Of a DNA stretch of 64,000 nt, positions 2,259-41,271 are shown piece by piece (positions within the stretch are counted from its first letter, which is position 1; each line of letters begins with the position of its first letter). The stretch comes from Asterias amurensis (taxonomy: Eukaryota; Echinodermata; Asteroidea; Forcipulatida; Asteriidae). Under the pieces are notes generated by a model that made no database searches, was not told the DNA's origin, and saw only the letters and a list, made by a program, of their open reading frames with translations. The translations under genes and the position numbers were made by a program. The stretch covers positions 3,162,001-3,226,000 of the forward strand of contig NC_092662.1 of assembly GCF_032118995.1 (NCBI RefSeq). The letters run 5' to 3'.

Positions 2259-4376
2259 CTAAGCTGACGCGCCCCCCTCTGCCCCACCTTCATCTGCTCC
2301 ATCAGGGGCAGGTTTCTGGTAGTTGCCCTTTTTTTGATGGCGGCACATTTTGCAGTCATCATCGTCGTCACTTTCGTCGCTCGAAGAACTCTCCCCGAAC
2401 ATCCTCGGTTTCTCGTATATACAACAACCTGACGAAGTTAAGAGATGAAATCAAAGTTCGACCTTCAGCTGGCAAGCATGGAATGTTACTGAAGCCATGG
2501 CCTCCGTTGCCCTGGTCTTGACCTTAAGTTTCCCAAAGATTTTAAAATGTAAGTGCCCTTTTTGAAATGTAAATTGCCTTGCCCTCACAAAGATGAAACT
2601 ACAGGCAGATGGCCTCCGTTGCCCTGGTCTTGACCTTAAGTTTCCCAAAGACTTTAAAATGGAAGTGCCCTTTTTGAAATGTTAATTGCCTTGCCCTCAC
2701 AAAGATGAAACTACAGGCAGATGGCCTCCGTTGCCCTGGTCTTGACCTTAAGTTTCCCAAAGATTTTAAAATGGAAGTGCCCTTTTTGAAATGTAAATTG
2801 CCTTGCCCTCACAAAGATGAAACTACAGGCAGATGGCCTCCGTTGCCCTGGTCTTGACCTTAAGTTTCCCAAAGACTTTAAAATGGAAGTGCCCTTTTTG
2901 AAATGTTAATTGCCTTGCCCTCACAAAGATGAAACTACAGGCAGATGGCCTCCGTTGCCCTGGTCTTGACCTTAAGTTTCCCAAAGATTTTAAAATGGAA
3001 GTGCCCTTTTTGAAATGTAAATTGCCTTGCCCTCACAAAGATGAAACTACAGGCAGATGGCCTCCGTTGCCCTGGTCTTGACCTTAAGTTTCCCAAAGAC
3101 TTTAAAATGGAAGTGCCCTTTTTGAAATGTTAATTGCCTTGCCCTCACAAAGATGAAACTACAGGCAGATGGCCTCCGTTGCCCTGGTCTTGACCTTAAG
3201 TTTCCCAAAGATTTTAAAATGGAAGTGCCCTTTTTGAAATGTAAATTGCCTTGCCCTCACAAAGATGAAACTACAGGCAGATGGCCTCCGTTGCCGTGGT
3301 CTTGGCCACGGTACCCTTAAAAATTTGTCAAGATTTTCTCAAAAACTTCATTGGTGTTTTTTTCTTCTTTCATTATTATCTCACAACTTCGACAACCGAT
3401 TGAGCTCAAAATTTCACAGGTTTGTTATTTTATGCATTGTTGAGATACAGCAAGTGAGAAGACTGGTCTTTGACAATATACCAATTGTGTCCGGTGTCTT
3501 TAAAACTTGAAATTATTGTTAGACTTACATTTAGATTTTTTCTTGCCCATGTGTTCATTGTCTACAACTCCATTTTTCCAATTCACCTTCTTCTTTTGCT
3601 TGGGCTTCCTCAGTTTTAATGTCAGTGATGGCTAGAGGAGGAAACAAATATAACGAACATCAGAAAAGGCTGCAAGTTTAGGGAGAATTCATTGATAAAA
3701 TTGACTGACATTAATGTTGGGAATCAAGTTATAAATAGCAAGTAATATATGACCATAATTACACATAATTAAAAGGATGAATTCAGTGTGTTTTTTAGTT
3801 GCGATAACATAACCATCCTCCCGAGAACGGCAGGGGGAGGGTTTCGACGTTATCATACTTCTGGAAACAATAAAGCTTCCCGTGAGCCTTAGTTTCTAGA
3901 TTCCCTAGTAGAAGTAACGTTATCGCACCTATGACAGTTGTCAGTTACCGGGTCTAGTCCACAGTAAAATATTTTACACATAGTTGAAACATTCATTGAT
4001 TAAATTTGCTGTAGAATTTTTAGGCACATGATGATGATGTACTTCAAATCACTACTTCTATAAAAAAAAAATTGTTCAAAAAGAAAAAATACAAAAACCA
4101 ATTACATAAAGATGAAATATCGGCTGATCCCAGACCCAATTCTGGGGCGCTTTACTCCGTTATAAAAACAATTGTTGTTAAAATCATTAAAATAAACCGG
4201 AGTACAGCGCCCCAGTTAAATGTACTAATCCCCCCGCTCCCCCTCCCCCCTCTTATCTTAACATACACGGCAGTTTCATTTTTTTAATTTGACCATTGAC
4301 TTACCGAGCTTTGACTCTGAGTCTGTGTTTCGGTGACTACAGCCGCTTGTGTTTGTAAAGTACACGTTGAAGACAT
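2259..4376 (-). CDS. PPP1R11: Protein phosphatase 1 regulatory subunit 11 (inhibitor-3)
   Basis: Three coding exons on the minus strand: 4376-4305, 3631-3529 and 2428-2259, giving 114 residues (human is 126). Donors and acceptors are GT-AG and the phases agree (0, then 1). Exon 2 encodes SLTLKLRK, then KVNW (residues 39-42), which matches the RVxF-type PP1 docking site, then VDNEHMG. Exon 3 opens with the family signature CCCIYEKPR, then FGESS, an acidic run (DESDDDDD) and a CKMC pair. In the known family this small, largely disordered protein inhibits PP1 and has also been reported as an E3 ubiquitin ligase through its Cys-rich part. It is transcribed away from GTF2H4. Intron 2 carries a 112-bp tandem array and a foldback-element fragment starting 22 nt from the exon 2 donor. 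Identification is from recalled family sequence, with high certainty. Confidence 0.95.
2499..3310. repeat. 112-bp tandem array with 224-bp higher-order period
   Basis: GGCCTCCGTTGCCCTGGTCT starts at 2499, 2611, 2723, 2835, 2947, 3059, 3171 and 3283, a strict 112-bp step. Monomers alternate between two types (AGATTTTAAAATG with GTAAATTG, and AGACTTTAAAATG with GTTAATTG), so the true repeat is a 224-bp dimer. The array sits in PPP1R11 intron 2. Diverged single copies of the same unit occur near 24530-24845, 33610-33990, 40170-40320 and 49640-50180, so the array arose from an interspersed element. Confidence 0.93.
3345..3507. mobile_element. Foldback MITE family F2, 3' half
   Basis: Matches the right half of the F2 family (TTGAGATACAGCAAGTGAGAA, then TTTGACAAT, then GTGTCCGGTGTCTTTAAA). 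It directly follows the 112-bp array and lies 22 nt from the PPP1R11 exon 2 donor. Confidence 0.7.
3799..3930. mobile_element. Short palindromic element, family F5
   Basis: Starts TTGCGATAACATAACC and closes with GTAACGTTATCGCA, with an inner GGAGGG/CCTCC hairpin. Related palindromes lie at 5819-5874 and 20781-20852 (TTGCGTTAACGTAACC against GGTTACGTTATCACAA). It is in PPP1R11 intron 1. Confidence 0.6.
4132..4215. mobile_element. Palindromic element, family F6
   Basis: AGACCCAATTCTGGGGCGCT pairs with GGAGTACAGCGCCCCAG around an AT-rich centre. A near-perfect copy is at 42160-42285 and a half copy at 17899-17930. It lies in PPP1R11 intron 1. Confidence 0.65.
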
Positions 4377-4695
4377 GGCTCTGCTAAGAATGCTTTAAAA
4401 CTTACGATTAAAATTGTCATAAATTGAACATTTTAACACAATTTCGGGTCACCGTTTGTGTGTTGACAACATTTTCTGCATGACAAAATTATACTGGTAC
4501 CCAGTACCCAGTTGCACGACGTAAACACAACAAGTCAATGGCATGACGTTGTGACACCAGTTTAGGGCAGCGATATTTGTAACCTCGCTCCTTTCTGTGT
4601 TTGCTTGTCCCCATAATCAATTTCCTCGGATAATGTGCGCCTGATGGTCCACAGTTGTGGGGAAAAGGTCGTCAAAGCAGAGTTCACATTTCAAG
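4377..4695. promoter_or_regulatory. Divergent promoter of PPP1R11 and GTF2H4
   Basis: The two start codons face away from each other with 319 bp between them, so both promoters must lie here unless there are distant non-coding first exons. The plus-strand sequence around the GTF2H4 start, AAGATGGCGGC (4694-4704), matches the YY1 consensus seen at many housekeeping gene starts. No clear TATA box was found. Confidence 0.7.
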
Positions 4696-7600
4696 ATGGC
4701 GGCCTCCATGGGAGAGAAACTAACTTGCAGAGATTTGCACAGCTATTTGCAGACGCTACCTTCATTCGTTCTAGACAAACTATACAACCACCCAGCAACT
4801 TGTTTGGCTGTATTCAGGTGAGTTAATTTTACAGTTAATATATTAAATCAAAAACACAGTTGATAGACCTAGTATTTTCATAAAAAATATCAAAACAAAC
4901 ATATTTTAATTTAAAAAATAAAAATAAAAATAAATAAAAATAAAATAAATACAATTATTACATTTAATTAAAAAAAGAAAGGACGATTAATCACTAATAA
5001 TATGTGAGGCCGTGTTCCGAAACAACGACTTTGGCTACAGCTACATCTAGATCAGCGCGTCTACCAGTGTTGAAGAATAGATAGCATAACATTAACACTA
5101 CAGGAAGTCCAACAACAAGCATGATGACATGATGTTTTGACAAGCAAGAGAAGATTCATTCAGTCGATGCGGAGCATCGGATGATGGCCCTCCAAACACG
5201 TTGGTCCTCCATTGCTGTTTGTAGCTCTTCCCGACGCAGTCCAGAGTCCCGGCACAAGGTGTACAAGAAGATAGGCTACCTAAAATAGGCTAAATAACAC
5301 TATACTTTTACTACTGTTGAAAATTGCCGACTGGCTTCTAAATTTGTCAAGATAAAGAACCAAGATAAGCTTTTAAAGTTGTATTGTAAAGTTGTATAAC
5401 ATTTTGTAGGATTAGGCTTTTTTAATTTTTTTATTTGGGCCAAGCAAGTTTATACAGCTGTTTTAAACTATAAAACACCCAAATGCTCCTAAAATTCACA
5501 TGATTTTAGACAATGAGCGATACTTCTACTCGGTATCTAGCGGACTGTCTGTCAAGCAACTTTAATTTCCTAATTCTCTTGCCTTCAGGGAGCTGCCAAC
5601 ACTTGCTAAGCATTATGTCAACAGGGTGTTATTTGTTGAGCAACCGGTTCGTAAAGCATCAGTCGAATCATGGGTCCAGAAGGCCCATCTTGAGTAAGTA
5701 TGCAGCACCTGAAACCTCCCACCTCAGGCCCTCATTCCCAGGTTACAGAAACCCCATTTTCACCACAGGGTACACAACAAAATGTGCATCCTGAGAAAGT
5801 GCAGTATCCAAAATCCGTGTTGCGATAATGTAACCCTCCTTCCGACGGCTTCGGAGGAGGGTTACGTCGCAACTGCCAAAACCCCCTGCCCCACTCTTAT
5901 GGTTACTGCTGAATGTCCATCATTTTCAAGGTAAAAGGCACATAGGGCTCAAATATGGGGAATCTTAGTATAAGACTACATGAAGTGTGGCTATTAAATA
6001 CTTGACCAGAAACTTATGAACAAGAACAGAAACAAATGAAAAAACAAAAACATTTTATGGTACAGATTTTAATTGAACAATCATCTCATTTGTCTTATGA
6101 TCACATTATTATACTTCATTACTCAACACATTTGAAAGATTTTCATCAGACTCAAAGTCATCATTTCAAACATAGTTTGTTATTATTCAAGATTTAAAAG
6201 TAGAATTAGCTGTTGCAGAGAGCTTGGCAACAAAAAGTACCAATAGTATAAGCAAAACATAGTTATCAGCTTGATGTTTTGACCCTAGCAGAGTCTGCTA
6301 CTAGGGTCAAATAATTGTATTTCTTAAAGAAAGACTCTTCTAGGCCCCAAACAACAGGCCAATTAACTATAGTGTTACATTGAGTAACTACATTTCCATG
6401 TTTTCTTCCTTGTAGCCCTTAACCTAGAGTGGCTTTTAGCCTTGTTTTGGGCGAACTTGCATACAAAAAAATATATAATTTTTTTTTTTTATCTATACCC
6501 AAACCAGAAAACACAAAAAATGTGCACAGATTTTGTCCGACTTGAGGATTTGGCACGACAACACCCTTCCAGGAGGTCTCCCAGGATGGCAGCTCAACCC
6601 CATCTTCAAAGCCAATCTACGGATCGCTCTACTAGGAGGGTAAATATTTACAAAGTAGTGTTCTCCCTTCCCGGGTTTTGCCCTTCACTTTTTTAGTGAC
6701 TGGGCAGCAGGACCAATTAGCTTGTCATTTTCAATGGTCCGTCAGGAAGAATATCATGCCTATTGACCCCTTGCACGCGCATCACATGCGGCGACCAATG
6801 CCACGCTCACCATGTTGGTGGGCAGTTAGGTTTACGTGTATCAACACCGCGTCGCCTAAAATGCACACTTTACTGCATAACGCGCAGCATAGAGTTGATG
6901 GGTCAATGGGGTGTCGTGGCCAAGCGGACAAGAACACCGAACTCAAGCTCTGGTGTTTCTGTTCAGCAGAGTGTGGGTTCGAATCCCGGTAGTGACACTT
7001 GCGTCCTTGAGAAAGATACTTAACTATAATTGCTTCTCGCCACCCAGGGGTAAATGGGTACCTGTGAGGGCAGAGTTGGTTCTGGTGAAGGAGACTGTTT
7101 CTACTTCTTACCCATGTGTGAATGAAGGCACCGCCAGAATATTTAAACCTCATACTATTAATCTGGTTCTAACTTTGTTTTGTTTCCCCCTCTACAGTGG
7201 AAAGCCATGGTCAGGCACTGGGAAGACTGCACCAGACAAGAATGCTAAAGACATCGATAGCCTTAACAGATATGCAATGGATCGGTGGGAGGTATTAACA
7301 GAGAAAAACACTCTGCATTCAGGATTCAGTATCTTAAAGATTGTACTAATAGGGTTTGGCTCAAAAGTTTTTCTTTTAGATTTGTTCTTTTCAGAAATGT
7401 GTACTCTATCACTATTTATAATAAACCAAGAGATGACAACAAGAACACATTAAATATAAGATTCAAGTGCTAGCCTACTGCTTGCTTGTAAGAAAAATAT
7501 AATAAATAAGGTTGCATGCATTGCACAAAAAAAAAAACACTATAACAATCATAGTAAAAACCACCCACACAAAGTTTTTTTCTTTATTTTTCTTTATCAA

Positions 7601-10600
7601 AAGAAACCACAGCAATTGACATTATCAAATTACTTTTTGTCTGAATGCACATTTACATTTCTTTTCTTCTTATTCTCTAGCTGGTGCTTCACTTTCTGGT
7701 CGGGTCAAAGGGTGATGAAAGTCTATCCCCGGACATAGCTGGCGTTCTCACACATTCAGGACTCATGAAAATGTAAGTGTACCTCGCAATCGGAGCTGGC
7801 CCATGCATTGTGTCGAGTCAACAAACCTGGGGCTGGTTGCGTGTATGGAGGAATATTGCACAAAGAGGAGGTTGTGTAAACATGAATGTATTATGAATCG
7901 GAATCGGCTCCATGGGTGTGTCAAAAGTGGATAATTTTGTTTGGCGAGGTTCGACCATGGCCCAATTTCATGCCACTGGAATTCCGCGCCTGAGTTCCAT
8001 AGAGTTATGCCAATTTACAGGGTACCGCAAGGATTAAGTGCTTTAGTGAGAAGTGCCATTAAATTGGGCCCTTCTGTGGAGCATGTGAAGCGATTGTGGA
8101 ATGTTAATGGCTTTCATGAAGGGCGCCCTCTCTGGCTTGTGTGTGTGTTTGTAGCAATTTGTATGTACATCTGGGTATCTGTTTTTTTTGTAAAACCAAG
8201 ATCTTTCCCAAATCCATCAAAAAAACAAATAATTGATAGAGATGGATTTCTTGTGTGTATTATTTGTTTTTCCCCATGTTCAGAAGTGAGGATGGTCAGC
8301 CTGTGATAACACCGTCTGGTTTCCAGTTCCTCCTCCTAGACACTGCATCCCAGGTGTGGTTCTTTATGCTACAGTACTTGGAGACAGCTGAGGTAAGGGG
8401 ACCAGACCAAAAAATGTGTTTATGTTTTTAGATATTTCTTAGATTTTATTGATTTCCATATACAAAAATAGAAAAAAATACATTGTATGTGAAGATATGA
8501 AATCTGAAAAATATATTTCATAAACTGTAAAAGTCAGCGAGAGTGTTGTTTTGTTGTTACAATTTAAATGAAATCATACAAGACAATTAAGATTTGTCAG
8601 TGTTGGAGCATCACTAATTGAACAGCCCCATTATTTATCTATCATAAATTGCTGCCATTTGGTCCTGTAGTACTTTCAACCAACAAAACCATAATAACTT
8701 CATGTGTAGGGTGTTAGAACACAAAAGGTTCAATAGACAATCCTTAAAAGCCCTTTTCTTAAAGCCATTGGACCCTTTCGGTAAACAGTGTTGTCCAAGG
8801 CCCACACTTTGTGTACCACAACTTCCATATTAAATAACAAACCTGTGAAAATTTAGGCTCAATCGGTCATCGGAGTCGGGAGAAAACAACGGAAAAACCC
8901 ACCCTTGTTTCCGCGCGTTTCGCCGTGTCATGACATGTGTTTAAAATAAATCCGTAGTTCTCGTTAACGAGAATTTATATTGTTTTGCTGTTTTCTCAAA
9001 AAGTAAAGCATTTCATGGAATAATGTTTCAAGAGAAGTCTTTCACCATTGCCTTCTGTAAACCCTGTAAGTTATTTGTAAATCTGTGAACTTTTTTTTTT
9101 TTTTCTGAACCGAAAGGGTCCAATAGCTTTAAGGAATGAAATTTGAGAAGTAACATTAATAATTTTCCCACTGCTGTGTGTTTCAGTCTAGAGTTCTGGA
9201 TCTAGTTGATGCCCTTTCGTTCCTGTTCCGTCTTAGCTTTTCAACTCTTGGCAAGGTAAATATGGAAACAAGAAAATACACATTGTTGTGCACTCTGGGG
9301 TTAGGGGCCTTTTAACAACCGTGACTTTGGTTGATTTTGGCGCTATATAAATTCCCTCTGATTGATTGATTGATTGATTAATCATAAATGTATTAGGTCT
9401 TGAACTTCGCTCTTGAAGGTCACAGCAATGTTCTTGGGGAACTTCTATGAGAAAATGTGAATTTGTATTTGAACTTTGCAAAGTACACCACAGCAAAAGA
9501 ACGGGGGCATCACAGCAATTGCTGTTGGTGACATGGGTTGTCGATTTGAGGCCTGATGTATCCATTGTTATATTGCGGTAATAAATGGTGAAATTTATTG
9601 GTAGCAAACCAACTACACTGTATCACTACATTGACATCTGACCTCTCACGATTCCAACATTCTCTCAAACCATAAATGTATTAGGTCTTGAACTTAGCTC
9701 TTGAAGGTCACAGCAATGTTCCTGTGGTAAGGGGAACTTCTATGAGAAAATGTGAATTTGTATTGGAACTTTACAAAGTACACCACATCAAAAGAACGGG
9801 GGCATCACGGCAATTGCTGTTGGTGACATGGGGACCAATAGGCTAATCTCTTCAGATTAGCCTATAAAGATATCAAGGGAAACTTTCTTCTTGTTCTTGA
9901 CCAGCGCCTTTGAATGTCACACAGATAAATTGCCCTTTACAAATGCTGTGTTATATTTATTATTATCGACTGTGTGTGTTGGTGTGTATCATTTCCTCTG
10001 ATAATTCTATCATTTTGGGTTGCCTTTTCTTGAAGGATTATTCCTGTGAAGACATGACAGAGTCACAACTACAATTCTTACAACATCTCAGGGAGCTGGG
10101 TCTTGTGTTTCAACGAAAGGTTCGTTCAACTTCCTTATCAATAAGTCTGGAAAAATTGTGTTTTGGGAGTAACCTTTCCACCTATAGCCCCTTTTGATTC
10201 ATGGCCCTACGCTGTAGTGGACGGAAGCGTTGATTGGGTGATTTCAGAAAAAAAAAAAAAAAAATGATTTTATAATTGTAGCGGAAGGTAATTATGGAAA
10301 CAACAAAATGCACATTTTTTTAGGATACGAACAGCCTCTAGCTACCGGGCAACCTTGGTAGTCTAGTTGGTAAGACAGCTCTAGAATTGCAAGGGTCGTG
10401 GGTTCCAATCCTACTCCAGTGATATTTTTTCTTAAGACTCGGGGGGGGGGGGGGGGGGGGGGAAGTACTGAGTATACAGTGCTTACACACATCGGTGTAT
10501 GGGTAAAAACTAAAATTAATATTCTTTACCCCCGATGCAAATTTAAGATCTATTAAAATGCACTTGGGGGTTAATCGTACATGTATCAGATTGTGATGTC

Positions 10601-13066
10601 ATGATTAGGCATGACCGAACTTTCACCCAGAGCCTGGTGGTGAAAAGGTCATGTTGAAGTAGTGGGTATTCCTGGAATGCTAAGAAGGCAAAGCATTTGA
10701 GGGAGTTTGGAGCGATCAGCAGTGTTTTGGGGGCTAGACCAACACTACCAATGCAGTCAAACAAATTTATTAGTAATAGAGGGCAGGTAATATCAATATA
10801 AAATAATGACCATTTATGTTAAGTACACTAGCAAGAAAATCATTACAAAATATATAAAATAATAATCATTATTATAATTCTATTACAGAGGAAGTGCATG
10901 CGTTTCTACCCAACAAGTCTAGCAATCAGCTTAGCATCAGGTGAGCACGAAGAAATAACCCAGTTTCACTTTTTGAAAAGCCAAGGGAAAAGCCCTTTGG
11001 TTCCACCAAATTAATAACATTCTTTATTCCAGATGCAAATTTAACATCTCCTAAAATGGTTCTATTTGTTCAAGCGTCTCGACTACATTATTAGTGCGCT
11101 ATATAAGACTATAGTAATTATTATTTTTCTTGCTCAAACAAGGTATATCAAGTGTTAGTACAGACAGTCACAGGGAAGGCTTCATCGTTGTGGAGACCAA
11201 CTACAGAGTGTACGCTTACACAGAGTCAGATCTCCAGGTGGAAATACTTGGCCTCTTCACTCAAATGCTGTACAGGTTAGCATTAATGTATGGTTTGCAG
11301 TAACACTGTGTGTAGCTCTGCTTGCTAGGTAGATCATGATTCTTTGAGAATCCGTCTTGCTATGCATTCTACATGTTCTACGGCCGGGAGTAGATTTTAC
11401 AGAACTTGGGAGACTTTTCCTCTACCGCGGAGTAGGTTTTCAGAGGTTAGCTTTACAAAATTCAAACTTTGGCATGCAACTCAAATTTATAAGAAAAGTA
11501 CCAGGCCGTAAACACTTGCACTGTTTTTTTTTTCTTCAAATTTTCAATGGCACAGCTGAGAAACCCAAACCAAGGAAAGTAGCTCAACGGTTGAGAAACG
11601 TGCACGCCTGTGAAACCTCACCTCAATCCTCTGAAGCGGAGTTTGGTGCCGATTAAACTGATGCCAGACTGGTCATGGTATATTCCGGGCTAACAAGTTC
11701 TGGATGTGCTTGATTGCAAGTCCAGCCTGTGAGTGTGGAGCTTCCCTCCAAACAGCTGCCCACATCATCAGTGAATGCATTGTTCACAGTTGCCCAGCCA
11801 AGCAGTCCCTATAAGGGAGCTAGCTGTCTGGCCACACTAGACTACTTCACAACAAATGTATCATCTTCGCCTAGTCTAATCTGAGACATATGGACTTGGA
11901 GTTGTTTATGTTTTTCTCAGTGATTACCGATTAGCATTTTATTTTGGCTCCTCAGATTTCCTAATTTAGCTGTCGGTGCCCTGACAAGAGACAGTGTTCA
12001 AGCAGCAGTCAGTAACGGCATCACAGCGGAGCAGATACTTCACTACCTTAGAACGCATGCTCATCCTGAAATGCTCTCAAGGGTAAGGTTAATGTGTGTA
12101 AAGTTTGTAACTGACCCTAACCGTTCCAAATCCTCCCAAAGCCTACTCAGGAAATTGTCTGACATTGTAGGATGGTACTCGAGGCCGCAATGTACCTTTT
12201 GTTAAAGTCCCCGAGTAGTCATGCCTTCACTTAAAATTGAAAAGCAGTGCATGAAATACCAGACTTTCCTTTAATTATTTCTAGGTACCAATAGTTCCAG
12301 CCACTATCAGCGATCAGATACGACTCTGGGAATTGGAAAAGGACAGACTCACGTTCCAGTCAGGTAAATATGGCAACAGATCAACAGCATGTATGATTTT
12401 GGTTTAATGAAATTTATGGGTGAAATCCGAGTCCATGCAACACAAGCAACCATCATGACATAATGATTTAGAAGGAATATGGTACAGACCTTTTTTTATT
12501 GCAAGGTCACAGCCATATTTTTTTGCCAAGCGAAGTTGGAAAACTATGAAAAGCCATAAATACAAAACAAAAACAGATGGCCACAGTTTGTAACAATGTT
12601 ACACAACTATTCTGAAATCGTGTTAAATTTGTTGGAAACAATGCGACCTATCATGGGCAGTATTATATTTCTTTAAAAATTTGCAGAAAGTATTGAATTT
12701 GGTCAAAATATTTGTTAACATGGTTAAATCAGCGCCCGGTTTGTTTATCAACAATGGAAAGGTTTATAAAACTGTGAAAAAACAGAATGGCGACCATCGT
12801 TGACAGCTTGATAAACTTTAACTGTACTGAGTTTCCCAAGATGCATTGTTGGAATAGTGCATTCATGAAATTATTTTTATATTTCAGGGGTGGTCTACAA
12901 TCAATTCCTATCGTCACAAGAATTTGAGGTCCTCAGAGATTATGCAAAGGATCTGGGTGTACTGATGTGGGAGAACCCTGGCAAGAGGACTTTAGTAGTG
13001 ACCCCCTCTGGCCACGACGATGTCAAGAAATTCTGGCGACGACAAAAGAAGGGACAACAGTCCTAA
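4696..13066 (+). CDS. GTF2H4: TFIIH subunit 4 (p52/Tfb2)
   Basis: Thirteen coding exons: 4696-4817, 5589-5693, 6508-6639, 7198-7291, 7681-7772, 8284-8392, 9187-9255, 10036-10119, 10889-10940, 11143-11275, 11956-12082, 12285-12363 and 12888-13066. All junctions are GT-AG and phase-consistent, giving 458 residues (human 462). Conserved stretches include [105 protein letters not shown] and [14 protein letters not shown]. p52 belongs to the TFIIH core, anchors and stimulates the XPB translocase, and binds p8/TTDA through its C-terminal part. It acts in transcription initiation and nucleotide excision repair in the nucleus. The start is the first ATG, in a YY1-like context, and a second in-frame ATG lies four codons on. 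Exon 3's 5' edge is the least certain because that segment is poorly conserved. Introns carry LINE, SINE and MITE insertions. Confidence 0.97.
5157..5273 (-). mobile_element. LINE 3'-end coding remnant
   Basis: On the minus strand one frame reads [19 protein letters not shown], then RVWRAIIR and a stop. This resembles the C-terminal tail after reverse transcriptase in RTE/Jockey-like LINEs (a GL..EEL....DR..WR pattern). It is a short 5'-truncated fragment in GTF2H4 intron 1, and the family assignment is tentative. Confidence 0.45.
5819..5874. mobile_element. Palindromic element, family F5
   Basis: TTGCGATAATGTAACCCTCC pairs with GGAGGGTTACGTCGCAA, forming a perfect short hairpin in GTF2H4 intron 2. 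It is the internally deleted version of the 3799-3930 element. Confidence 0.6.
6757..6910. mobile_element. Foldback MITE with TATTGACCCCTTGCACG ends
   Basis: Begins TATTGACCCCTTGCACGCG and ends at GGGTCAAT, with a shared interior (CACCATGTTGGTGGGCA). Copies are at 25207-25388 and about 32761-32893. It lies in GTF2H4 intron 3, directly before a SINE. Confidence 0.65.
6911..7165 (+). mobile_element. tRNA-derived SINE, family S2
   Basis: The head reads GTCGTGGCCAAGCGG (A-box-like) and GGGTTCGAATCCCGG (B box), like a tRNA-Leu/Ser. The body reads CCACCCAGGGGTAAATGGG, then TACCTGTGAG, a segment common in marine-invertebrate SINEs. Reverse copies or fragments occur at 37887-38145, 18580-18680 and 19925-20035, and a tail fragment near 31785-31880. 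It ends just upstream of GTF2H4 exon 4. Open frames here are by-products of the SINE. Confidence 0.75.
8761..9130. mobile_element. Foldback MITE, F2-related subfamily
   Basis: The termini AAAGCCATTGGACCCTTTCG and its inverse CGAAAGGGTCCAATAGCTTT enclose 370 bp. The interior shares GTGAAAATTTAGGCTCAATC with F2. It lies in GTF2H4 intron 6. Confidence 0.7.
9330..9379 (+). mobile_element. LINE 3' tail with (TTGA)n
   Basis: GGCGCTATATAAATTCCCTC is followed by a GATT microsatellite, the typical 3' end of echinoderm CR1/L2-like LINEs. The same end type occurs at 46480-46520. Confidence 0.45.
9383..9832. repeat. Direct duplication in GTF2H4 intron 7
   Basis: The segment 9383-9537 (CATAAATGTATTAGGTCTTG to GGTGACATGGG) is repeated at 9671-9832 with few differences, including a short insertion in the second copy. 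About 130 bp of unrelated sequence separates them. A 26-bp hairpin (TAGGCTAATCT/AGATTAGCCTA, about 9839-9866) follows. Confidence 0.85.
10343..10550 (+). mobile_element. tRNA-derived SINE, family S1
   Basis: A-box-like TAGTCTAGTTGGTAAGAC, then B-box-like GGGTTCCAATCC, then TACTGAGTATACAGTGCTTA, then CGGTGTATGGGTAAA and a tail. A run of about 22 G residues (10441-10462) interrupts the body. Other copies are at 27781-27953 (-), 27945-28135 (+), 45558-45740 (-) and 57446-57605 (-). It is in GTF2H4 intron 8. Confidence 0.75.
11330..11465 (+). repeat. Interspersed repeat, family R4
   Basis: Contains TACCGCGGAGTAGGTTTT and other pieces shared with 14840-15075 (reverse) and 47994-48145 (forward). 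The consensus runs from GAACTGTCTTGCT through a CCGCGGAGTAGAT centre to GTTCTGAAAAGAACTG and TACCTGGG. The class is unknown. It lies in GTF2H4 intron 10. Confidence 0.55.
11560..11890 (+). mobile_element. LINE reverse-transcriptase C-terminal remnant
   Basis: One frame (11701-11812) reads [12 protein letters not shown] then AAHIISEC, the Cys/His motif downstream of reverse transcriptase in several LINE clades. The fragment is 5' truncated and decayed, in GTF2H4 intron 10. Confidence 0.6.
12535..12820. repeat. Interspersed repeat, paired copy at 29560-29830
   Basis: Shared words include AAAGCCATAA, CAAAACAAAAACAGAT, CTGTTTGTAACAA (or CAGTTTGTAACAA), TTGCAGAAA and TTTATCAACAATGGAAAGG, in the same order in both places over about 270 bp. 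No coding potential or terminal repeat is evident. It lies in GTF2H4 intron 12, close to exon 13. Confidence 0.65.
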
Positions 13067-13918: not shown

Positions 13919-16900
13919 TTACGTTTGTGATTGTGGCATATGGCGTTCAAGAACATCTGGCACCTAGAAGAAAGAAAACAAAATCACAATTAGGTTTGTT
14001 TGAGACAAAACTTCTTCAGCAACACAGGCAAGAATATTTGTCATTTTGCACCCCAAAAAATCTTGATTTAAAGAATCTGTTTCCAGTGAAAAAAATTAAG
14101 AGTTAACGTACCTGTTGGGCTGGAAGTAGAGCTGCAAGCAGAACAGACGTATCCAGGGCTGTGCAGTGTACCTAGGCGGAGATGTAAAAACAAAAAAATT
14201 GTAAACTTGGGTGTGATCCATGGCTCAGCAGTTATATGGCTTCTGACTGGCACCCTAGAACAAAGATGTTGACTACAGGAGACAACCAGTTCGTTTATCA
14301 GGAGGTCAATTGTCCCATTCCCACTTCAGTAAATGTGTCATTGTTCAAACCCCAACAATTAATCAGAGTATACAACACTTTCGAAATGAACAAAACAACA
14401 AAAAACAAGCAAAAAATTGAAATAATAAAAGCAAATTTTATTATAAGGAAAATTTGTCTATTGGACTTTGTTTGGAGTTATACACCCATTTGATCAAATT
14501 TAGAGATTTGTTTCCTAATTAAAATTCTGGTGAGCAAAATCTAGCTCTTTGAGCTTCTGATCATATTTTACCTCATCGATAACAAATGCGTAAAGTGCAA
14601 TTGGATCTTGAATTTTGTCCACATACCGTGTGAAGGAAGTTTCGTTGTCTACTTTGGGCGGCACTCTGGGTAGGAATGGCTGGGTATCTCATCTTGACTC
14701 TTCGGCTTATGTAGTCTGTACAGCTGTATGCACACCCAACCTTAACGAGAAGAAAAATAATAACAGTGCATCAAGAACAAAATCGCAGGCGATGCAATAG
14801 GGACTCACTCCGAGGCAGTGAAGTTATAATAAGTAGTCCCCTCGATCGACTAGTGAAAATAGTAGTCCTGGTCGGTTTCCTACCTTCCACCCAGGTAGTA
14901 GTTAAAAAGCAAGGCAGTTCTTTTCAGAACTTAAAGGTCTACTGATTTCCAAAAATCTACTCGACAGCAGTAGAGAAATCTCCCAAATTCCAAATAAATC
15001 TACTCCGCGGCAGTAGAATACATTTATAGCAAGACAAGCTCTTAGAAGAACAAATCTACACAGCAAGTAGATAAACAAATGACTAGAACACACTAACCTC
15101 CACAAATTCAGCTATGTTTGGGATCCAGACTTCAATGGCATATTTCAAATGCATGCTTGGGAGTAGCCGTGCACTCGGTACGGAAGTAAGTCTGTAAACA
15201 AAAAAATACAATAATAATTAGTTAACCCTAATCATCAAATTTCTTTTTAATATGCAGGATTTAAAAAACAAAGATGGATTTTCAGGGTGTAAATTCAGTA
15301 CAGTAATAACTTTTTTCAACACGAACATGATACAACTTTATAAAAAAGTGACATTCTCAACTGAAATTTTGTCCTACAAAGACCAAAGTATCCTACCTGT
15401 AATGCAAAGGAAGTTTCACCAGGAGATCCGTTGCCGTGCGGAGAAATTGTGTAAACAGAGCATTGCTGGCAATGTCGCTGTTTTCACACACACCACAAAG
15501 TTCAACCTGTTAGGGATGAGAAGAAATTGTTAGTGAAATAACACTTGAGAAATTACTCCAAACTACTTGATGTCTTGTTAGTTAACCACTAAGGGCCTTC
15601 TCTTGTGCGTCAATTTAACAGGCAACTTGGCGTGACTAACATCACTGCATGCTTACGGACCACTTTGGTGCCATGTATGGTCTTTTGGTGATTTTTTTTT
15701 TTATAATTTTTTTTATGCAAGTCGCCAGATACACAAGCCCTGAAAGACTTCAAGGTGGTTGTTACAATTTAATTTTCCAGGGGCACTTATTGCCACCTAC
15801 TCCTAGGGCTGAAACAGGGTTACCCCCTTTACAGTCCATGCGGATGTAGGCTGTAAGGAATCATCCATAAGAAGCCTGGCTGGTAGAGCAGAAAGCACTA
15901 CCTCCCCAACTTCACCGAAATAAATGGTCTCTAAAGGGCTAGACCTCACCTGCATGTTGTGAATGTGAATGACTTGTATTTAATTGTCTATCAAAACTCA
16001 TTAACAAAAACACTTCTCTAAACTAAACTTTATTTACCTTTTGTGTCTGAAAGTTGTTATGGAGTCCATCAAACTTATCTGAATCTGCGAAGACAAGAAT
16101 TAAAAACATATTGATGAGACGGCAATGGAAAAAATGTGCCAAAGGCTTTTTTAAGGAACAACAACCTAGGCTCATAAAACTGAACAAAAGCACAAAAAAG
16201 TTTACCTTTTAGGCTGTCATAACTCCTACCAACTGTAAATCCCCTGAAATTAAAAGAAAACAAATGAAAAGAAACCTCACTTAATTGTAAAACGGGTTTA
16301 AAAAACGTCCACAAACACTTCTTAGGGTATGTTTTATCAAAGCAAAAATCATACTGTGACAGTGCGCAAACAAATGGATAAGGGAACAGACCAAAGTTCC
16401 GGACAACTTTAGCAACAATAAAAAAGAGACAATGGAGCTGGGCAGCTGGTATGAGGCCCTCCAGTGGAGGGCAATAATGAATGACCAAGAGCAGTTGCTT
16501 TAATGAAAAAGGAGTTTGGTTTTTCCCATCAAAATCATATTTGTATTATTTTCCTTTACCTGTATGGTAGATCCTCCATCTCCATAACCGACATCATGTA
16601 ATATGCTGCAAAAAAGTGAGCAATAATTTATACTTTTATTTTTACAGTTAAAGGTTGTAAAAAGAAGGGGTTTTCAAAACCAGTCCTTAGTCCTGGAGCT
16701 TTTGGATTTAGTGTGAATTGTGACATCAAGATTGGTGGTTCGCACTGAAAGGGTTTGGATAATTTTTGTCAGACATAAAAACACAAACATCCACAGATTC
16801 ATGTTAAACTTTCACAGTTTAAAGATAATGATGGCAGAAAGCTTCCCTTTCAAAATATAACTTGCTGAAGTGCTGTAGAATCTTAAAAAAAAATGAATAT

Positions 16901-26591: not shown

Positions 26592-26597
26592 AATAAA
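26592..26597 (+). terminator. Candidate TADA1 poly(A) signal
   Basis: AATAAA 214 nt after the stop codon. A further AATAAA lies at 26763-26768. Confidence 0.45.
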
Positions 26598-29500: not shown

Positions 29501-29559
29501 CTAGATTTCAGCTCATCATGCATTGGAGTACATAATAATATAGAACTTCCTATTTTGCC

Positions 29560-31474: not shown

Positions 31475-34400
31475 TTAATCTCGTCGGAGTGGGAAGCGCT
31501 CTTCCCTCACGCCATCCTTGGTGATCACATTCACGATGATACCGTCTCCTGTATAGATGTCTCGCTCAGCGGCCGAGATGAAAACATCCTTCACTAAGGC
31601 AACAGCCTTCTCAATGGTGAGGGGAGGAGCTTCGTAACCTTCTTGATTCTTGCCTCCAATCTTGGAAAAAAGAAAGAGAAACAAATTGTTTGAAATATAA
31701 CTTTGACAACTGTCCAAGAATGCAACGTGTGTGGCTCTTAAAACGACTTATTTATTTGGAGCGCTAAGGTTGCCCAAGTTTTATACTCCCCAGGGAGCTG
31801 AGAATGATTAAAGTTATGTTTTTGGCCAAATGACCAGGGCACTATTGTAAAGCGCATTGTGACAGTTATTGTAAAATGCGACTTATAAGAACTTGCTTCT
31901 ACTTATTTGATTGCTGTGCTCTGACAATCAGACTCTCGGATGAGGCAATATGTAATTAGAGTTGTGCGTTGGTTCTCTTCTATGCCACAATGGTTCATTC
32001 TTCAAGCCCAACGGTTTTTCTTCCCTTCAGAAAAAATCAAACACTGTCGATCTCTGGCTGTTGATGTGGCTTGCTGCCTAAGCCAACCTTTCAAGCCAGG
32101 GGCTCAAACACGATGTGGCCAGCTTCCAGCTGATCAGCTGGGAGTAAAGATAATACTCCCAATTTAAAATTCTTATCCCTATTATTTTTTTCTTTTAGAC
32201 CAAGTTTACCTGGTTGTCTAGCAAGGGCTGTAGGAGTGAGCTGGATGACCCAGCAGCCCTGTACACTTCTCTCTCGTATGAGCCAACAGGATCAAAGCTG
32301 TACACACAACCTTTACCTATCAATGCAATCACAAAGAACATGCAATTTATGTATTCGATAACAAGTTTTTGTTAGCTTTTTAAGGTTTTAATTACAGAAT
32401 TTGTAAGGACAGAAACACTATTGTTTTATCAGTTTGAACGGATTGTTCATACTAGACACATTTTCCTCCGAGATGTACACATGCAAATTAAACAAAACTC
32501 AATTGACAGTTTTAAATTTGAAACGAAAGCATACAAAGAAATAATAAATAAGGATATCTGGAAAGACATCTGACCATAGAGCATAAACTTGCTCTATTGA
32601 CAATCTTCATGTACCATCAAGAATGTTTTAGCTTTTAGCAAAGTGTTTATATACATTGCAAAGTCTTGACAAATTTTCACAGAAACAGAAGTTTTTTTAC
32701 TTTTTATACTGTGATGGTCAACACATCACTGTAACACCATTTGGTTTGGGTAAATGTGTACATATTGATGCCATTCACCTGACGTCGTCATCAGAATAAT
32801 CTTGGAGCCGCCATATTGGTGGGCAATGTCACTGTGCGTTATTCAAGGAAGTGCGCATTGCCGCGTGTGATGTCCGTGCAAGGGGTCAATACACCCACAT
32901 CCTACAGAGCACTCCTATAGTGTCCACCATATCTCAAAAAAGGTTAAAGCCTGGTTCATACTTCCTGCGATACGAATGTTGACGTCACAAACTCGCAACT
33001 AATTATTCGCAGCAGTTCAACTTTGCTCAACATACTTGCGAAAATCGCTGCGAAAGGAGGGTTGTGACGTCAAAATCACGTCAAATTAGCTTCGCATTCG
33101 CAGGAAGTACAAACCGGGCTTTATGGAGTCATCCAACTGTCACTTTGATGTACTAACCTTCCTCGTCCAGACCGGCCAGGACATTGTAAGTGTAGTAAGG
33201 GAAGAAGCGTCTGTAGTACAGGATGGATGAAAGCATAGAGGCTATGGCCTTACAGCTCATCTTCTTGTGGTTGTCATGCTCATACATCTACAGGAAGGAA
33301 AAAACACCATAATTTACAAAAAAAAAATTATTGTTTTTTGGTCTCCACCAGCATGAGGTGTCCAGGGCCCAATTTCATAGAGCTGCTTAGCACAAAAATT
33401 TGCTTAGCATGAAATTTCTTCCTTGATAAAAAAGGATTACACACCAAATTTATATTTGCTGCATATTGCTTGTTACAGGTATTCAGCTGTTGTTTGCTTA
33501 TCCTGAAAATCACTTTGAAATTTGGTTGGTAATTCTGTTAATATCAAGGCAAAAAATTTCATGCTAAGCAAATTTTTGTGCTTAGCAGCTCTGTAAAATT
33601 GGGCCCAGGCCGTTATGCTTTGTTTTTGAAAGGGCAAGGGCACCAAGGCATTTTCTCCTTGGTAAAAATAATAACAATAGTTGCTTCTTACATGGCGCGC
33701 GTGTCCGTCTATCAGTGACGCTTCTGGCGCTGTAACACACAGTATTTCCTGCAAGATGTGGGACTACGTTTGAATTTTGAGACCTTATCCTTTTTATAGC
33801 ACCATGTTATGTTTTACAAGGTGCTGTGGCACAATTTGCTGCCGATCAGGGCACCCAATGAGGAAATTGTAATTTTCTACTGTAGTATGTCAAGGGCACC
33901 AAGGCAACCAGGGGGCATGGAGGTAATCGCCTTCATTGGCTCTGTGAAGTATCACGCCTGTGTGTCATCCTGTGGCCAGGGCACAATTGCAAAGAGCTAC
34001 TTAAAGGTAGGGCCATAGACTGGTAATTAGTAAAAACTGAACAAAAATAGCGACCATAACAATTTACTAGGTAAAGAGTAACAGCTATAGCAACAGCCTT
34101 AGCAACCGGTGTAGCTATTGCTATGCCATCAATTAGATTACGGCCTTCACAGGGTCGAACTCATACCTTAAGTCTGGCCTCCAGAACTTTAGACAATGTC
34201 AGCACATCTCCATGAAAACCACAACTTGCTAAAACAGTGGAGTCAGTTCTGCAAAAAGGAAGAACCTTTCAAATCAGTCAAAGTAAAATTAATTGGAAGA
34301 CTTCATTAAACTATTACACCATAAGTTGGTCACACCCAATTCTTTTTAAAATATTGTTCGATTAAGATCATAAGTAAACTCCTTACCCCCCCCCCCCCAA

Positions 34401-35532
34401 ATTCCTTAGATTTTGGACATTGTAGGATTGAGGTCACCTGTAGGCAAGTCAACCTAGGGAGCAAGGATTGAAAAATAATCAATGCATGATCATTATTGGC
34501 TACTTACAAATTATAGGTTTTAGGGAGATCCCTACTGTGAATGGAGAATCCTTCACTCAATCTTGTGTCGGAAGCGATGACAGCAAAATCATCACCAGAA
34601 ACAGCCAAGACAGTCCTGTTTCAGTTAAAGAAATAAATAACATTGTACTCGTTGGCAATCTGTACGGAAGGCAGAAGTACTTTTTGGTAAACAAATCAAG
34701 TGGTAATGAACGAGTGAAACTATGTCAAATAATCAAAGTTATATCTTATTTAGATAATAATTATGCCTCTTAAACTAAGGTAGTTACTGAGGTTATAGAT
34801 TGTTTTTTTTTGTCAACAGAACGCTGATTTTATTATTAATAAGCAGAATTGTCAAGAAAGATACAATATTATATTAAAAGTAATCAGTGAAACATTCAGG
34901 AGAATACAGTGTGGCTTGCTAAGAAAACAACAAAAACAGCCACAGTATTTTCACAAAATAGTCAAAACCATGCCGCCACATAAATTCTATCCATCCTTTG
35001 GCTCTGCTGTCCATTATTTAACAGTGGTCAGCAACCAACGTGGGCAGGTTCTGTCCCTCCAACGATTCTCTCTCTTTCGTAAGTACACAATTCTTCTTAT
35101 CGAAGTATCTGACTGAGTCTGACTGACGATAATGATCGATACATACATATAAGATAGGGCTAGAAATATAGCGCCCTCTTTTCTTTATAAATAGAATCAA
35201 ACTTTTTCAGCGCATGTTAATTTCCCATTTCCCTGTGTGACTGTAATTGACACAGGCTCCCCACACTATTCCCTAAATAAAGACATATTATTTTTGTATT
35301 AGTTTTTACCATGGAGGTAGGGAGTTTTTACTCATTCTATCTACCATTGTTTTTATACTAACCAACAATCAAACAGCGCCCTCTTGTGTTGAGGGCAGTT
35401 CCACTCATAAAATAAATCATGTTTTCTACACTATCCGATTTCTTACCCTCCGTTCATGGAGTATGGGCTGAAATATCGCTGCTGAGGGTTCCCCAAAGAT
35501 GCGTGTGGTGCAGGATCCATTGCTAGCTCCAT
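31475..35532 (-). CDS. PSMB1: 20S proteasome subunit beta type-1 (beta6)
   Basis: Six coding exons: 35532-35447, 34615-34508, 34248-34167, 33287-33158, 32316-32210 and 31660-31475, phase-consistent, giving 232 residues (human 241). After a variable leader the core begins [20 protein letters not shown] and continues [79 protein letters not shown] and [19 protein letters not shown]. Beta6 is one of the non-catalytic subunits of the inner beta ring: there is no processed N-terminal Thr with the catalytic Lys arrangement, and the role is structural. It is divergent from LSM2 and convergent with TADA1. Confidence 0.97.
31945..32115 (+). mobile_element. SINE S3 fragment
   Basis: GTTGTGCGTTGGTTCTC, then ATGCCA, then AAAATCAAACACT, CGATCT and GATGTGGC are shared in order with 63105-63310. 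It is in the PSMB1 intron between exons 5 and 6. Confidence 0.55.
32761..32893. mobile_element. Foldback MITE with TATTGACCCCTTGCACG ends
   Basis: The right end reads CGTGCAAGGGGTCAATA and the interior ATTGGTGGGCAATG matches the copies at 6757 and 25207. It is in the PSMB1 intron between exons 4 and 5. Confidence 0.55.
33362..33608. mobile_element. Foldback MITE, family F4
   Basis: GGGCCCAATTTCATAGAGCTG is mirrored by CAGCTCTGTAAAATTGGGCCC. It is directly followed by the diverged 112-bp-type unit (33610-33990, GGGCAAGGGCACCAAGGCA). It is in the PSMB1 intron between exons 3 and 4. Confidence 0.8.
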
Positions 35533-36036: not shown

Positions 36037-38303
36037 ATGGTAATTACACTTAATGCTATTCATTTGTGCTGTTTTACTTTATTTGATTTTGTATCAAATA
36101 AACATGTAATCAAAGGTTTACTTTGACGGGACGGGACGGGCGGGCAGCATGCGTTGTGTATATTTTGGCATGTTTTGACATTTACTGATGACAGAGGGCG
36201 CAATTCAAAATTTGTCAAATCTAAAAAAGAACTTAAAACTATGATTTATGATAGTAATATGAATGAATTTAACAACATATTTTTGGTTACAACTAGTAAA
36301 TAATTACCTTAACATTATTCACCCTTTTTTTCAAAGAATAGACACCTAGCCTAGGGCCTAGGCAAATAAGGTCGGATATCTTTCCAAAATTACTTTATTT
36401 TCTTTTATTGTAAAACAAATATGTATTTTTTATGGAAAACAAAAATGTAAAAATGTCCCACCAACCAAGCTAACATTTACAGGCTAAGCTCTAGAGAATC
36501 TATTTTATAAATCAGGAATACATTATAAATAAAAGGTATGGGTTATGAATTATGCAAGATTGAACGTGTTTTACTGTTGTATGTCAGTTGTCAAAATTGT
36601 TTTTGATTGTTTCAATTAACATGTAAATCAAATTTGCATGAATTTTCTTTGTGTTCATCCAACAGCTCTTCTATTCATTCTTCAAATCTCTGGTGGGCAA
36701 AGACGTAGTAGTCGAGTTGAAAAATGATCTCAGGTATAAAATAAAGGAATATTTATCTCACAGTTATTTGTAGTTTGTTATTATAATAATAATAACGCGG
36801 GTTCTTATAAAAGGCTTTATTGCAACCCTAGGCATGCTAGGATGTATCAAAGTGATTGGTACTTTTTCCTGCAAGGTATGCAAATTTACATTTTGAAGTA
36901 CAATGTATACGTCAGCTGTTCTTTAAAGGAACACGTTGCCTTGGATCGGTCGAGTTGGTCTTTAAAAAAGCGTCCTGTAACCGTTTGTTGTAAAATGTAT
37001 ATGGTTAGAAAGATATTGTAAAAGTAGAATACAATGATCTACACAAATATGCCTCGAAATTGCGTGGTTTTCTTTTTACCCTGTCGACTTCCACGGTCGG
37101 CCATTTATGCGAGTCAAAATTTTGACTCCCATAAATGGCCGACCATGATAGTTCACAAAGTAAAAGAAAAACCGTGCAATTTCGAATGATACTTGTGTGG
37201 ATTATTATATATTCTACTTTTAAAACATCTTTCTAACCATATGCATTTCATAATAAACGGTTTCAAACGCTTTTAATAGACCAACTCGTCCGATCAAAGG
37301 CAACGTGTTCCTTTAAAGCACTAGATAATGATATAAAGGGTGATGTTATGCAATTTATGCAGACAATCAAACCAGGAACACCAAGGCAAACCCTTTAACT
37401 TACAAGAAGTGCCCACTGGTTTCTTTTACGTGGATTACACATTACTGTCTAACACTGGATGATTTGTCACGCAAGAAATTCAACAATTATCAACTGGCTA
37501 GATAAGGTCAATTTTGGTGAAAACATCAATAATACTAATAAATTTGTGTCTCTGAAACCTCTTACTAAAGTTTTGTTGTGGTTTTATCCATCACTAGCAT
37601 CTGTGGAACGTTACACTCCGTGGACCAGTTTCTCAACATCAAACTCTCAGACATCAGCGTGACCGATCCCGAAAAATATCCACACATGGTAGGTGGAGCC
37701 AGTCTCAATTAGGAATTTGAAATGCGACAACTTTGCACTTTGATTGACGAAGTTCTCATTCTAAAGAAAAAAGTGGGGATGACTGAGAAATGTTCACTTT
37801 GAGAGTTCCTCGAAGAGAAATTTACTACATAATAATTGCTGAAGGTCTTAAAAAAAGCATTTAACAATAACTTGTCAATGACTGTTTGCCCTGGTCGTTG
37901 GGCCAACAAAATTCCTGTAATCCTTCTCAGCTCCCTGGGGAGTAAACGGCACCGGGCTGCCACGGCGCTCTAAAGGAATTTTCAAAACAATATCAATTTC
38001 TACCCTCAAGAGATACCCATTTATACCCCTGGGTGAAAAGAAGCAATTATAATGAAGTGTCATTACATGGATTCGAACCCTAACCCCTGATGACTGAACT
38101 ATCGAAACATAACTTTGATGCTCTAAAGCCCTCGGCCATTAATACAATTTTTTTCCTCTCGGACTTTTATTCCACAGCTATCGGTTAAGAATTGCTTCAT
38201 CAGAGGTTCAGTAGTGAGGTATGTGCAACTGCCGGCAGATGAGTGTGACACACAGCTTCTTCAAGATGCAGCCAGGAAAGAAGCGGCACAGAGTAAACAG
38301 TAG
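36037..38303 (+). CDS. LSM2: U6 snRNA-associated Sm-like protein LSm2
   Basis: Four coding exons: 36037-36039 (only the ATG), 36666-36733, 37598-37688 and 38178-38303, giving 95 residues, the same length as the human protein. It opens MLFYSFFKSLVGKDVVVELK and includes NDLSICGTLHSVDQFLNIKL (Sm1 motif), then SVKNCFIRGSVVRYVQLPAD (Sm2 motif) and ends QLLQDAARKEAAQSKQ. LSm2 is part of the LSm2-8 ring on U6 snRNA in the nucleus and the LSm1-7 ring in cytoplasmic decapping-linked mRNA decay. The split directly after the initiator codon matches my recollection of the human gene. The exon 1-2 intron is about 626 bp. The 3' intron holds an S2 SINE in reverse, and a full F1 MITE lies in intron 2. Confidence 0.97.
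36923..37316. mobile_element. Foldback MITE family F1
   Basis: TTAAAGGAACACGTTGCCTT to AAGGCAACGTGTTCCTTTAA (allowing small mismatches), centred on GACTCCCATAAATGGCCGAC. It is in LSM2 intron 2. Confidence 0.8.
37887..38145 (-). mobile_element. tRNA-derived SINE S2 (reverse)
   Basis: The reverse complement has a B-box-like GGGTTCGAATCC, then TGACACTTCATTATAATTGC, then CACCCAGGGGTATAAATGGG and a tail with CTCCCCAGGGAGCTGAG. It ends 32 bp before LSM2 exon 4. Confidence 0.65.
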
Positions 38304-39949: not shown

Positions 39950-41271
39950 TTAGCTCTTATCACTTTCTAGTTGTGCCAGTTCCAAGATGTCATCTTCATC
40001 TGTTGTCCTCTGGACAGCTTCTCCCTTTGCAGCCAAAATCTCTTCAATATTCCTTTAAGAAAACAAAACAGACAACAAAATTTAATAGCAGTCTTCAATA
40101 TTCCTTTAAGAAAACAAAATAGGCAAAAACAATTGAAACACAGGCCTGACACTTCACAAAGGCTACAAACGTGATTGCCACCGCGCCCCCTGGTCATTGC
40201 CTTGGTGCCTGTGAACAGCTCTTGTAGAATTTACAATTTCCTCATTGAGTGCCCTTTACCGAGGAGAAAATACCTTGGTGCCCTTGCCCTTTCAAAAACG
40301 AATCATACAGGCCTGGAAACAGCAGTGGTTTGATTTTGTGTGTTCTGCTAAAAGTGATTGAGCATTTTGCACCATTCAAACCCCCCAAAAGAAGGGTAAA
40401 AATAAGAGCTTAATCTTACGAGCACTATACTCTGTATAATTTCTGGTGTTCTGTGAGCAAAAATTCACCTGGCATATTCCTTTGGGTTCAACTGCTACCT
40501 GATTTTTTTCGCAAATCACCGGAAAGTACCGAGTATACAGTGCTTGAACAGAACGGTGTAAGTGTTAAACAAAAAGTTGAACAGATGCCTTAAAAACAGA
40601 GACCATGTTGAGTGCAAGCCAACCCAAATTATATCGAATTCCAAGATTCCAAGACAAACAAAAATATAAATCAATCATTACCTTCCGCCCGCGTCAGCAA
40701 ACCACCCTAAATTATCAGCGATGAGATGATTCTTACTGCATCCCGGGCATTTGACGATCACCACTCCTTTCTCATACCCCACTCTGGAGATCGTCTTCGA
40801 GGACCTTGTCTCACATACTTTGCATGTAAAGACAAGCTGGAATTTGTCCGAGGCTGGTAATTTTCCCAGGGGTGTTTTCTCACCCTCGGAGGACTTCAAC
40901 TCCTCGTTAGAATTTTTTTGATTTTCTGATAGAGTTGAAGGTCCTGTGTGCAAACAACTAACGTGATTGGTTAACGGAGTTAGGTGTGATGTGGTTTGGG
41001 TCATTAAAGTTGATCGGCAATGCACCCTTTTCATCCATGTCGGAGTAATCAATGGTGTTCCAAGGAAAGTTGTTACTGGCCGTTGGTTTGAAAGCAGAGA
41101 CCTGATTCTTCCTGCGTTCTGCTTTTTTAGAGAAAATGAAGTGGCGAGACATTTCAGATTCACTCTGTCACATGGCTGCAATCCGATTGGAATCTTCTGC
41201 TGCAGGATATGACTTGAGCGAAAGACAAATACTGCGGAACGTCTTTGCAATGCTAACAATGGTGAAGTCAT
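39950..41271 (-). CDS. DNLZ: DNL-type zinc finger protein, mitochondrial Hsp70 escort (Tim15/Zim17-like)
   Basis: Two coding exons: 41271-40682 and 40052-39950, giving 230 residues. The N-terminus (MTSPLLALQRRSAVFVFRSS) is Arg-rich without acids, as expected of a mitochondrial presequence. The zf-DNL domain (about 141-205) shows CKVC (150-153), CPGC (175-178) and NHLIADNLGWF, with the spacing expected of the two Zn-binding CxxC pairs. Exon 2 completes RNIEEILAAKGE. The known role is to keep mitochondrial Hsp70 (HSPA9) soluble and active for import and folding. The protein is longer than human (178), the extra length being a low-complexity region before the domain. The exon 2 acceptor is duplicated 51 bp upstream. 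It is convergent with LSM2. Confidence 0.94.
40052..40133 (-). repeat. DNLZ: Duplicated splice acceptor of DNLZ exon 2
   Basis: TTTTCTTAAAG|GAATATTGAAGA occurs twice on the minus strand, with exon edges at 40103 and 40052. Only the 40052 acceptor keeps the frame: use of the upstream one would reach a stop after six further codons. Confidence 0.75.

Follow-up and report, generated by a model that had tools for sequence, protein, structure and literature searches.

The window analysed here is a stretch of 64,000 nucleotides from the genome of Asterias amurensis (C15:3162001-3226000), and seven conserved genes lie in a 39-kb part of it: PPP1R11, GTF2H4, a relative of mitochondrial seryl-tRNA synthetase (SerRS), TADA1, PSMB1, LSM2, and DNLZ. 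The chromosome carrying the window, C15, very probably (at a rough probability of 0.9) descends from the ancestral linkage group behind the human major histocompatibility complex (MHC) region at 6p21 and its paralogous arms on 1q, 9q, and 19p, and the genes seem to be neighbours through inertia. The gene neighbourhood thus appears to predate the vertebrates without itself being an immune cluster; in other words, it is ordinary deep chromosome-scale synteny, such as has been reported before for chromosomes of amphioxus and echinoderms.

The linkage is common to this invertebrate and human, and would therefore go back to an ancestor of both that preceded the vertebrate duplications. Through those genome duplications, the ancestral linkage group would have given rise to the 6p21 MHC region and to the 1q, 9q, and 19p arms, and C15 is likely to be its single-copy descendant. 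The human positions of TADA1 (1q24) and DNLZ (9q34.3) would fit duplication of one ancestral chromosome followed by differential gene loss on each arm. Genes would seldom have left the ancestral chromosome and would have been shuffled freely within it, so that the present neighbours would result from passive chromosomal inertia. The same picture is drawn for bilaterian and chordate linkage groups in the accessible parts of two reports (PMC11175523, PMC7269912).

MHC-framework families on C15

C15 comprises 18,103,274 bases, which is 3.68% of the genome (491,506,623 bases in 23 contigs). Eleven MHC-framework families were listed before any marker result was obtained, the result of the proteasome search being already in. 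Seven of these were searched for genome-wide, namely PBX, NOTCH, BET/BRD2, PRRC2, VPS52, WDR46, and CSNK2B, whereas ATAT1, BAG6, DXO, and STK19 were left out. All seven matched C15 and, at threshold, no other contig. VPS52 is at 0.38 Mb, WDR46 at 0.68 Mb, PRRC2 at 2.99 Mb, CSNK2B at 3.51 Mb, PBX at 3.75-3.84 Mb, NOTCH at 14.72 Mb, and BET/BRD2 at 17.32 Mb (C15:17321405-17324542, L012). Each of the seven families occupies one place in the genome; therefore, there is no sign of duplication.

When the families are taken as independent, the probability that all seven fall on C15 by chance is 9.2e-11, and it is still 1.2e-8 when the share of C15 is doubled, that is, when its gene content is assumed to be double what its length would predict. 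At the chromosome level, the concentration of markers on C15 is more than chance. The support thus takes the form of a marker test, not of a permutation over all genes. A simple coincidence, in which six conserved genes lie side by side by accident and their positions in human acquired meaning only in hindsight, is scarcely credible. It is true that the pattern was picked after the genes had been seen, that one of the six (PSMB1) misfits, and that the SerRS relative has no place in the pattern; however, seven families from a list written beforehand are all on one contig, with a P value of about 1e-10.

A PSMB7-type gene is also located on C15, at 17.58 Mb (C15:17576404-17579583, L005), with stretches 46-74% identical to human PSMB7. 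The first-pass annotation had called for a look at the rest of the chromosome, where an excess of MHC-paralogon orthologues was expected. Such an excess was observed for the searched markers, with the PSMB7-type gene in addition to the seven families confined to C15. Genes of the other paralogon arms found on C15 are TADA1, DNLZ, the PSMB7-type gene, and a GARNL3-like gene downstream of the window; by their positions in human, none of these is confined to 19p. As to the markers themselves, BAT2 and bing4 are other names of PRRC2A and WDR46, respectively. In the accessible part of one report, PPP1R11, GTF2H4, LSM2, BAT2, CSNK2B, BRD2, VPS52, and C6orf11/bing4 are tabled as MHC members (PMC1309616).

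It should be mentioned that the PSMB7-type gene is 0.25 Mb from the BET gene; in the class II region of vertebrates, PSMB8/9 and BRD2 are similarly near each other.

Non-MHC families of human chromosome 6 served as controls. In human, TAF11 is at 6p21.31 and geminin at 6p22.3. The genome search placed TAF11 on C22, geminin on C20, and the PDCD2 family on C17 and C1 (PDCD2 and PDCD2L were not told apart). All three control families lie off C15, and the comparison of the markers (7/7 on C15) with the controls (0/3) gave a Fisher P value of 0.0083. In addition, the proteasome family is scattered: its 21 matches represent 13 places on 9 contigs, only one of the 13 being on C15. C15 therefore does not attract matches indiscriminately.

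Several points weigh against descent of C15 from the MHC linkage group, or narrow what the test says about it. The controls are three families only and were picked once the marker results were in. As the markers had been selected for being classical MHC-framework genes, the test covers the MHC linkage group and not human 6p in its entirety. Coverage by the genome search was incomplete, since PSMB1 of the window itself was missed; for this reason, absences in the genome searches are weaker evidence than presences. A search with ANATO for C3/C4/C5-like genes gave no match in this genome and none in the control genomes either, and so weighs neither for nor against the linkage. Local clustering around the window, described below, makes a contribution beyond inertia conceivable. 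Finally, PSMB1 is outside the linkage pattern and is unexplained by it. Human PSMB1 is in 6q27 with PDCD2 and TBP, according to the accessible text of one paper (PMC1779440), and PDCD2-TBP-PSMB1 is regarded as a conserved synteny in that of another (PMC1800895). PSMB1 is on C15, yet no PDCD2-family place was found there. The simplest account of PSMB1 is a single-gene move in one lineage.

Conserved genes of the 39-kb stretch

Six genes, PPP1R11, GTF2H4, TADA1, PSMB1, LSM2, and DNLZ, had been claimed in the first-pass annotation for positions 2259-41271 of the window. Both the span and the gene coordinates were confirmed; all six genes are present, are multi-exon, and score over the Pfam cut-off. 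Human proteins were compared with the window by tblastn, which yielded an ordered chain of exons for each of the six, and Pfam was run on selected frames and exon-joined models.

The PPP1R11 orthologue, an inhibitor of PP1, is on the minus strand at 2259-3628 and has two exons (tblastn chain 3628-2352, 65% and 52% identity); the exon-joined model matches PPI_Ypi1 (PF07491) at 3.5e-25. Its 5' end is outside the two exons located. The intron contains a minisatellite with a 112-bp unit (window 2497-3304; 7.2 copies, 97% matches), the units of which are mostly open in one frame.

The orthologue of GTF2H4, the p52 subunit of TFIIH, occupies 4720-13048 on the plus strand, with about 13 exons in an in-order tblastn chain. 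Automatic splicing gave no junction at two of the 12 introns and yielded a translation with internal stops; the Pfam query was therefore joined from the aligned segments, and it matched Tfb2 (PF03849) at 3.2e-128 and Tfb2_C (PF18307) at 3.7e-26. The orthologue of TADA1, a SAGA subunit, follows on the same strand at 21923-26369 (tblastn chain; SAGA-Tad1, PF12767, 4.7e-19). A tRNA-Ser (AGA) gene is on the minus strand at 27856-27929, as found by ARAGORN and with an Rfam score of 48.1 bits.

The orthologue of the proteasome beta subunit PSMB1 is on the minus strand at 31478-35508, with 52-73% identity per tblastn stretch and a match to Proteasome (PF00227) at 2.3e-39. One junction of the model is unproved, since one of the five introns had no automatic splice junction; the exact exon junctions of both GTF2H4 and PSMB1 are unsettled. 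The LSM2 orthologue is on the plus strand at 36666-38300. Two of its three tblastn stretches are 91% and 93% identical to the human protein, and it matches LSM (PF01423) at 8.4e-18; the exon with its start codon is outside the stretches located. The DNLZ orthologue, which encodes a DNL-type zinc finger, is on the minus strand at 39953-41271 (tblastn 40842-40681 and 40054-40007, 67% and 75% identity). Its single large exon matches zf-DNL (PF05180) at 2.1e-25. DNLZ is an escort protein of mitochondrial Hsp70.

A seventh conserved gene, overlooked in the first-pass annotation, is located between GTF2H4 and TADA1; the cluster therefore comprises seven conserved genes, not six. This gene, a relative of mitochondrial SerRS, is on the minus strand with approximate bounds of 15092-20176. 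It was recognized by tblastn with SARS2, which matched 20176-20111 (E 0.005) and 15277-15092 (E 0.17), and by comparison of the joined frames with the mitochondrial SerRS structure in PDB (7tzb; whole-sequence E 4.9e-6), in which three stretches are colinear and each is weak singly. Against this identity, the frame at 18682-18879 has no Pfam family. The 5' end is outside the frames located, and the frame at 21391-21570 may belong to this gene.

The SerRS relative is probably SLIMP, a catalytically dead paralogue of mitochondrial SerRS found in invertebrates. This assignment follows from the retention of SLIMP in echinoderms, as described in the accessible part of one report (PMC10570016). The window gene resembles SLIMP in being colinear, although weakly, with mitochondrial SerRS; by this comparison, SLIMP is not told apart from SerRS2-alpha.

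Gene order and local clustering

The order of genes on C15 is not conserved in human. Distances on C15 and on human 6p are uncorrelated both for 10 genes (Mantel rho 0.10, P 0.29) and for the seven markers by themselves (rho 0.04, P 0.34). NOTCH and BRD2 are 11.5 and 14.1 Mb from the window, whereas PRRC2, CSNK2B, and PBX, which correspond to human class III genes, are at 0.21, 0.32, and 0.60 Mb from its centre. The third-nearest marker gave the best single-rank P value, 0.0077, which becomes 0.039 after correction for the choice of rank. The mean log distance of the MHC genes to the window, compared with random positions on C15, gave a P value of 0.033. Local clustering around the window is thus a hint, weakly above chance.

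These distances bear on a different explanation, in which the cluster, together with the surrounding class I/III framework genes, would be a functionally maintained and selected one, a true proto-MHC block held by co-regulation or by a shared stress or proteasome role. The proximity of the three class III genes, with the two P values just given, speaks for such a block, as do three head-to-head neighbour pairs recognized from strand and coordinates (PPP1R11/GTF2H4, SerRS relative/TADA1, and PSMB1/LSM2). However, NOTCH and BRD2 are far away and the order is uncorrelated. By their positions in human, TADA1 and DNLZ are from other paralogon arms and PSMB1 is from outside. Furthermore, the genes of the 39-kb stretch span unrelated processes: TFIIH, SAGA, the proteasome, the Lsm ring, a PP1 inhibitor, a mitochondrial zinc finger, and a mitochondrial SerRS relative. 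A selected block is accordingly judged improbable, and the 39-kb block is probably not special. Under descent by inertia, the genes of the 39-kb stretch, which are housekeeping genes, would have neither a function as a unit nor an immune role. The three pairs arranged head to head may share promoters.

A narrower possibility concerns the six genes PRRC2, PPP1R11, GTF2H4, LSM2, CSNK2B, and PBX, which lie within 0.85 Mb of the 18-Mb chromosome. It is unlikely, but worth stating, that they represent a class I/III-like neighbourhood kept since before the split of echinoderms and chordates. If so, selection or regulation would have kept part of the MHC together well before adaptive immunity arose.

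The first-pass annotation had proposed that the stretch preserves an ancestral linkage group that predates the vertebrate duplications. That proposal stands for the chromosome as a whole, where all seven markers are on C15 only and a PSMB7-type gene is present. It does not stand for a special 39-kb block, given the unconserved order and the weak clustering, and PSMB1 does not fit.

Neighbouring genes

The survey took in 304 kb (C15:3122001-3426000), comprising the window and its surroundings. Frames were ranked by a codon-usage exon finder, which recovered 26 of 33 training exons at threshold, and those with scores of 4.8 or more outside the window, or of 4.0 or more inside it, were read by eye, so that the annotation of the region is not exhaustive. 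For five of 10 selected exon-finder frames, Pfam gave no family, and the matches of two more of these 10, one to EF-hand and one to CNH, did not reach the Pfam cut-off.

Downstream of DNLZ, two tandem copies of a gene for a patatin-like phospholipase with EF-hand exons were read by eye on the minus strand, at 45762-53619 (copy 1) and 55827-62579 (copy 2). The patatin/EF-hand gene, which the first-pass annotation had appended to the block, is thus real; Pfam confirms patatin in copy 2 only (PF01734, 2.9e-15), where the EF-hand (1.6e-5) is just below the cut-off, and the first exon of copy 1 alone gave nothing. The tandem array on this strand has at least three first exons, the third at about 3.241 Mb (L018:5126-5362). 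It is a neighbouring array and is outside the linkage argument. Copy 1 contains degenerate tandem repeats of 36, 57, and 71 bp (window 52337-52677). Beside it, at 45650-45721 on the minus strand, there is a weak tRNA-like match (30.6 bits, against an Rfam threshold of 29) that was not called by ARAGORN; it is perhaps a tRNA-derived repeat.

Beyond the window on the downstream side, the next conserved gene (about 3.245-3.26 Mb) matches Rap_GAP (4.5e-11) and CNH (4.4e-16) when its frames are joined. We take it to be GARNL3, a paralogon-arm gene located at 9q33.3 in human. A frame of 78 residues on the minus strand (L034:4470-4703) has a coding score of 22.4 and looks like a conserved exon, and no Pfam family was found for it. 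Upstream of the window, at C15:3.143-3.150 Mb, there are three closely similar HYR-domain frames (L039:6092-6430 and others), one of which was scanned (1.8e-6); they possibly result from a recent tandem duplication.

TIR and TPR-like genes are arranged in tandem at about 3.405-3.420 Mb, some 180-195 kb beyond the downstream end of the window (L034:8796-9998, and L035:203-901 onward to about 3.42 Mb). The Pfam value is 2.2e-12 for TIR_2 and 6.1e-6 for TPR, the latter being below its cut-off. Their domains suggest genes of an innate-immunity type. The patatin, HYR, and TIR/TPR genes appear to be lineage-specific.

The TIR/TPR genes, and the PSMB7-type gene at 0.25 Mb from BET, could be cited for the older proto-MHC hypothesis, according to which linked immune receptors were already on the chromosome before the vertebrates. 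Against this, no MHC class I/II, TAP, immunoproteasome, or Ig-type receptor gene was noticed when the better-scoring frames of the 304 kb were read by eye or in the Pfam scans of selected frames, no search having been aimed at them, and a PSMB5-type gene is off C15, on C3. Moreover, a chromosome joining the MHC, the natural killer complex (NKC), and the leukocyte receptor complex (LRC) is an artefact of later fusions according to Nakatani et al., in the accessible part of their paper (PMC8302630). An immune supercomplex of this kind is highly improbable here. The present result concerns the MHC framework genes only and does not revive the larger MHC/NKC/LRC idea.

Comparison with known systems

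Proto-MHC work on placozoans reportedly exists. Among the literature matches listed, an echinoderm proto-MHC or a counterpart of the MHC linkage group was not named in titles and abstract openings, which formed the scope of the comparison, supplements and most subscription papers being outside it. The accessible parts of PMC10232365 and PMC10972751 contain no mention of the MHC. The linkage would follow directly from published orthologue maps, and it is expected from the known chromosome-scale synteny, which the result confirms and does not overturn.

In amphioxus, the framework of the proto-MHC, or "primordial immune complex", comprises rxr, notch, pbx, brd, psmb5/6/7-like, and c3-like genes, as given in the accessible parts of two reports (PMC10751288; PMC1945033). 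The sea star resembles amphioxus in that notch, pbx, brd, and a psmb7-like gene are on one chromosome here too. The difference is that the psmb5-like gene is on another contig here.

The chromosomes of sea star, sea urchin, hemichordate, and amphioxus are largely conserved, fusions among them being named, and the order within chromosomes is scrambled in amphioxus; both statements are taken from the portions of the papers that were accessible (PMC11175523 and PMC7269912, respectively). C15 shares with these bilaterian and echinoderm ancestral linkage groups the conservation of a whole chromosome with scrambled internal order. It is matched to them as a type only, and not to a named linkage group.

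With the human MHC paralogon (6p21, 1q21-25, 9q33-34, and 19p13), C15 has the non-immune framework genes in common; it differs in that the framework families are each in a single place. C15 may thus serve as an outgroup for the MHC paralogon in which the linkage group is unduplicated and on a single chromosome. The whole 18-Mb contig allows one to ask which genes adjoined the future MHC before the vertebrates and which were recruited later, and also whether C15 is richer than other chromosomes in innate immune families, of which the TIR/TPR array is an example. C15 is a well-supported further example of the known MHC-framework linkage.

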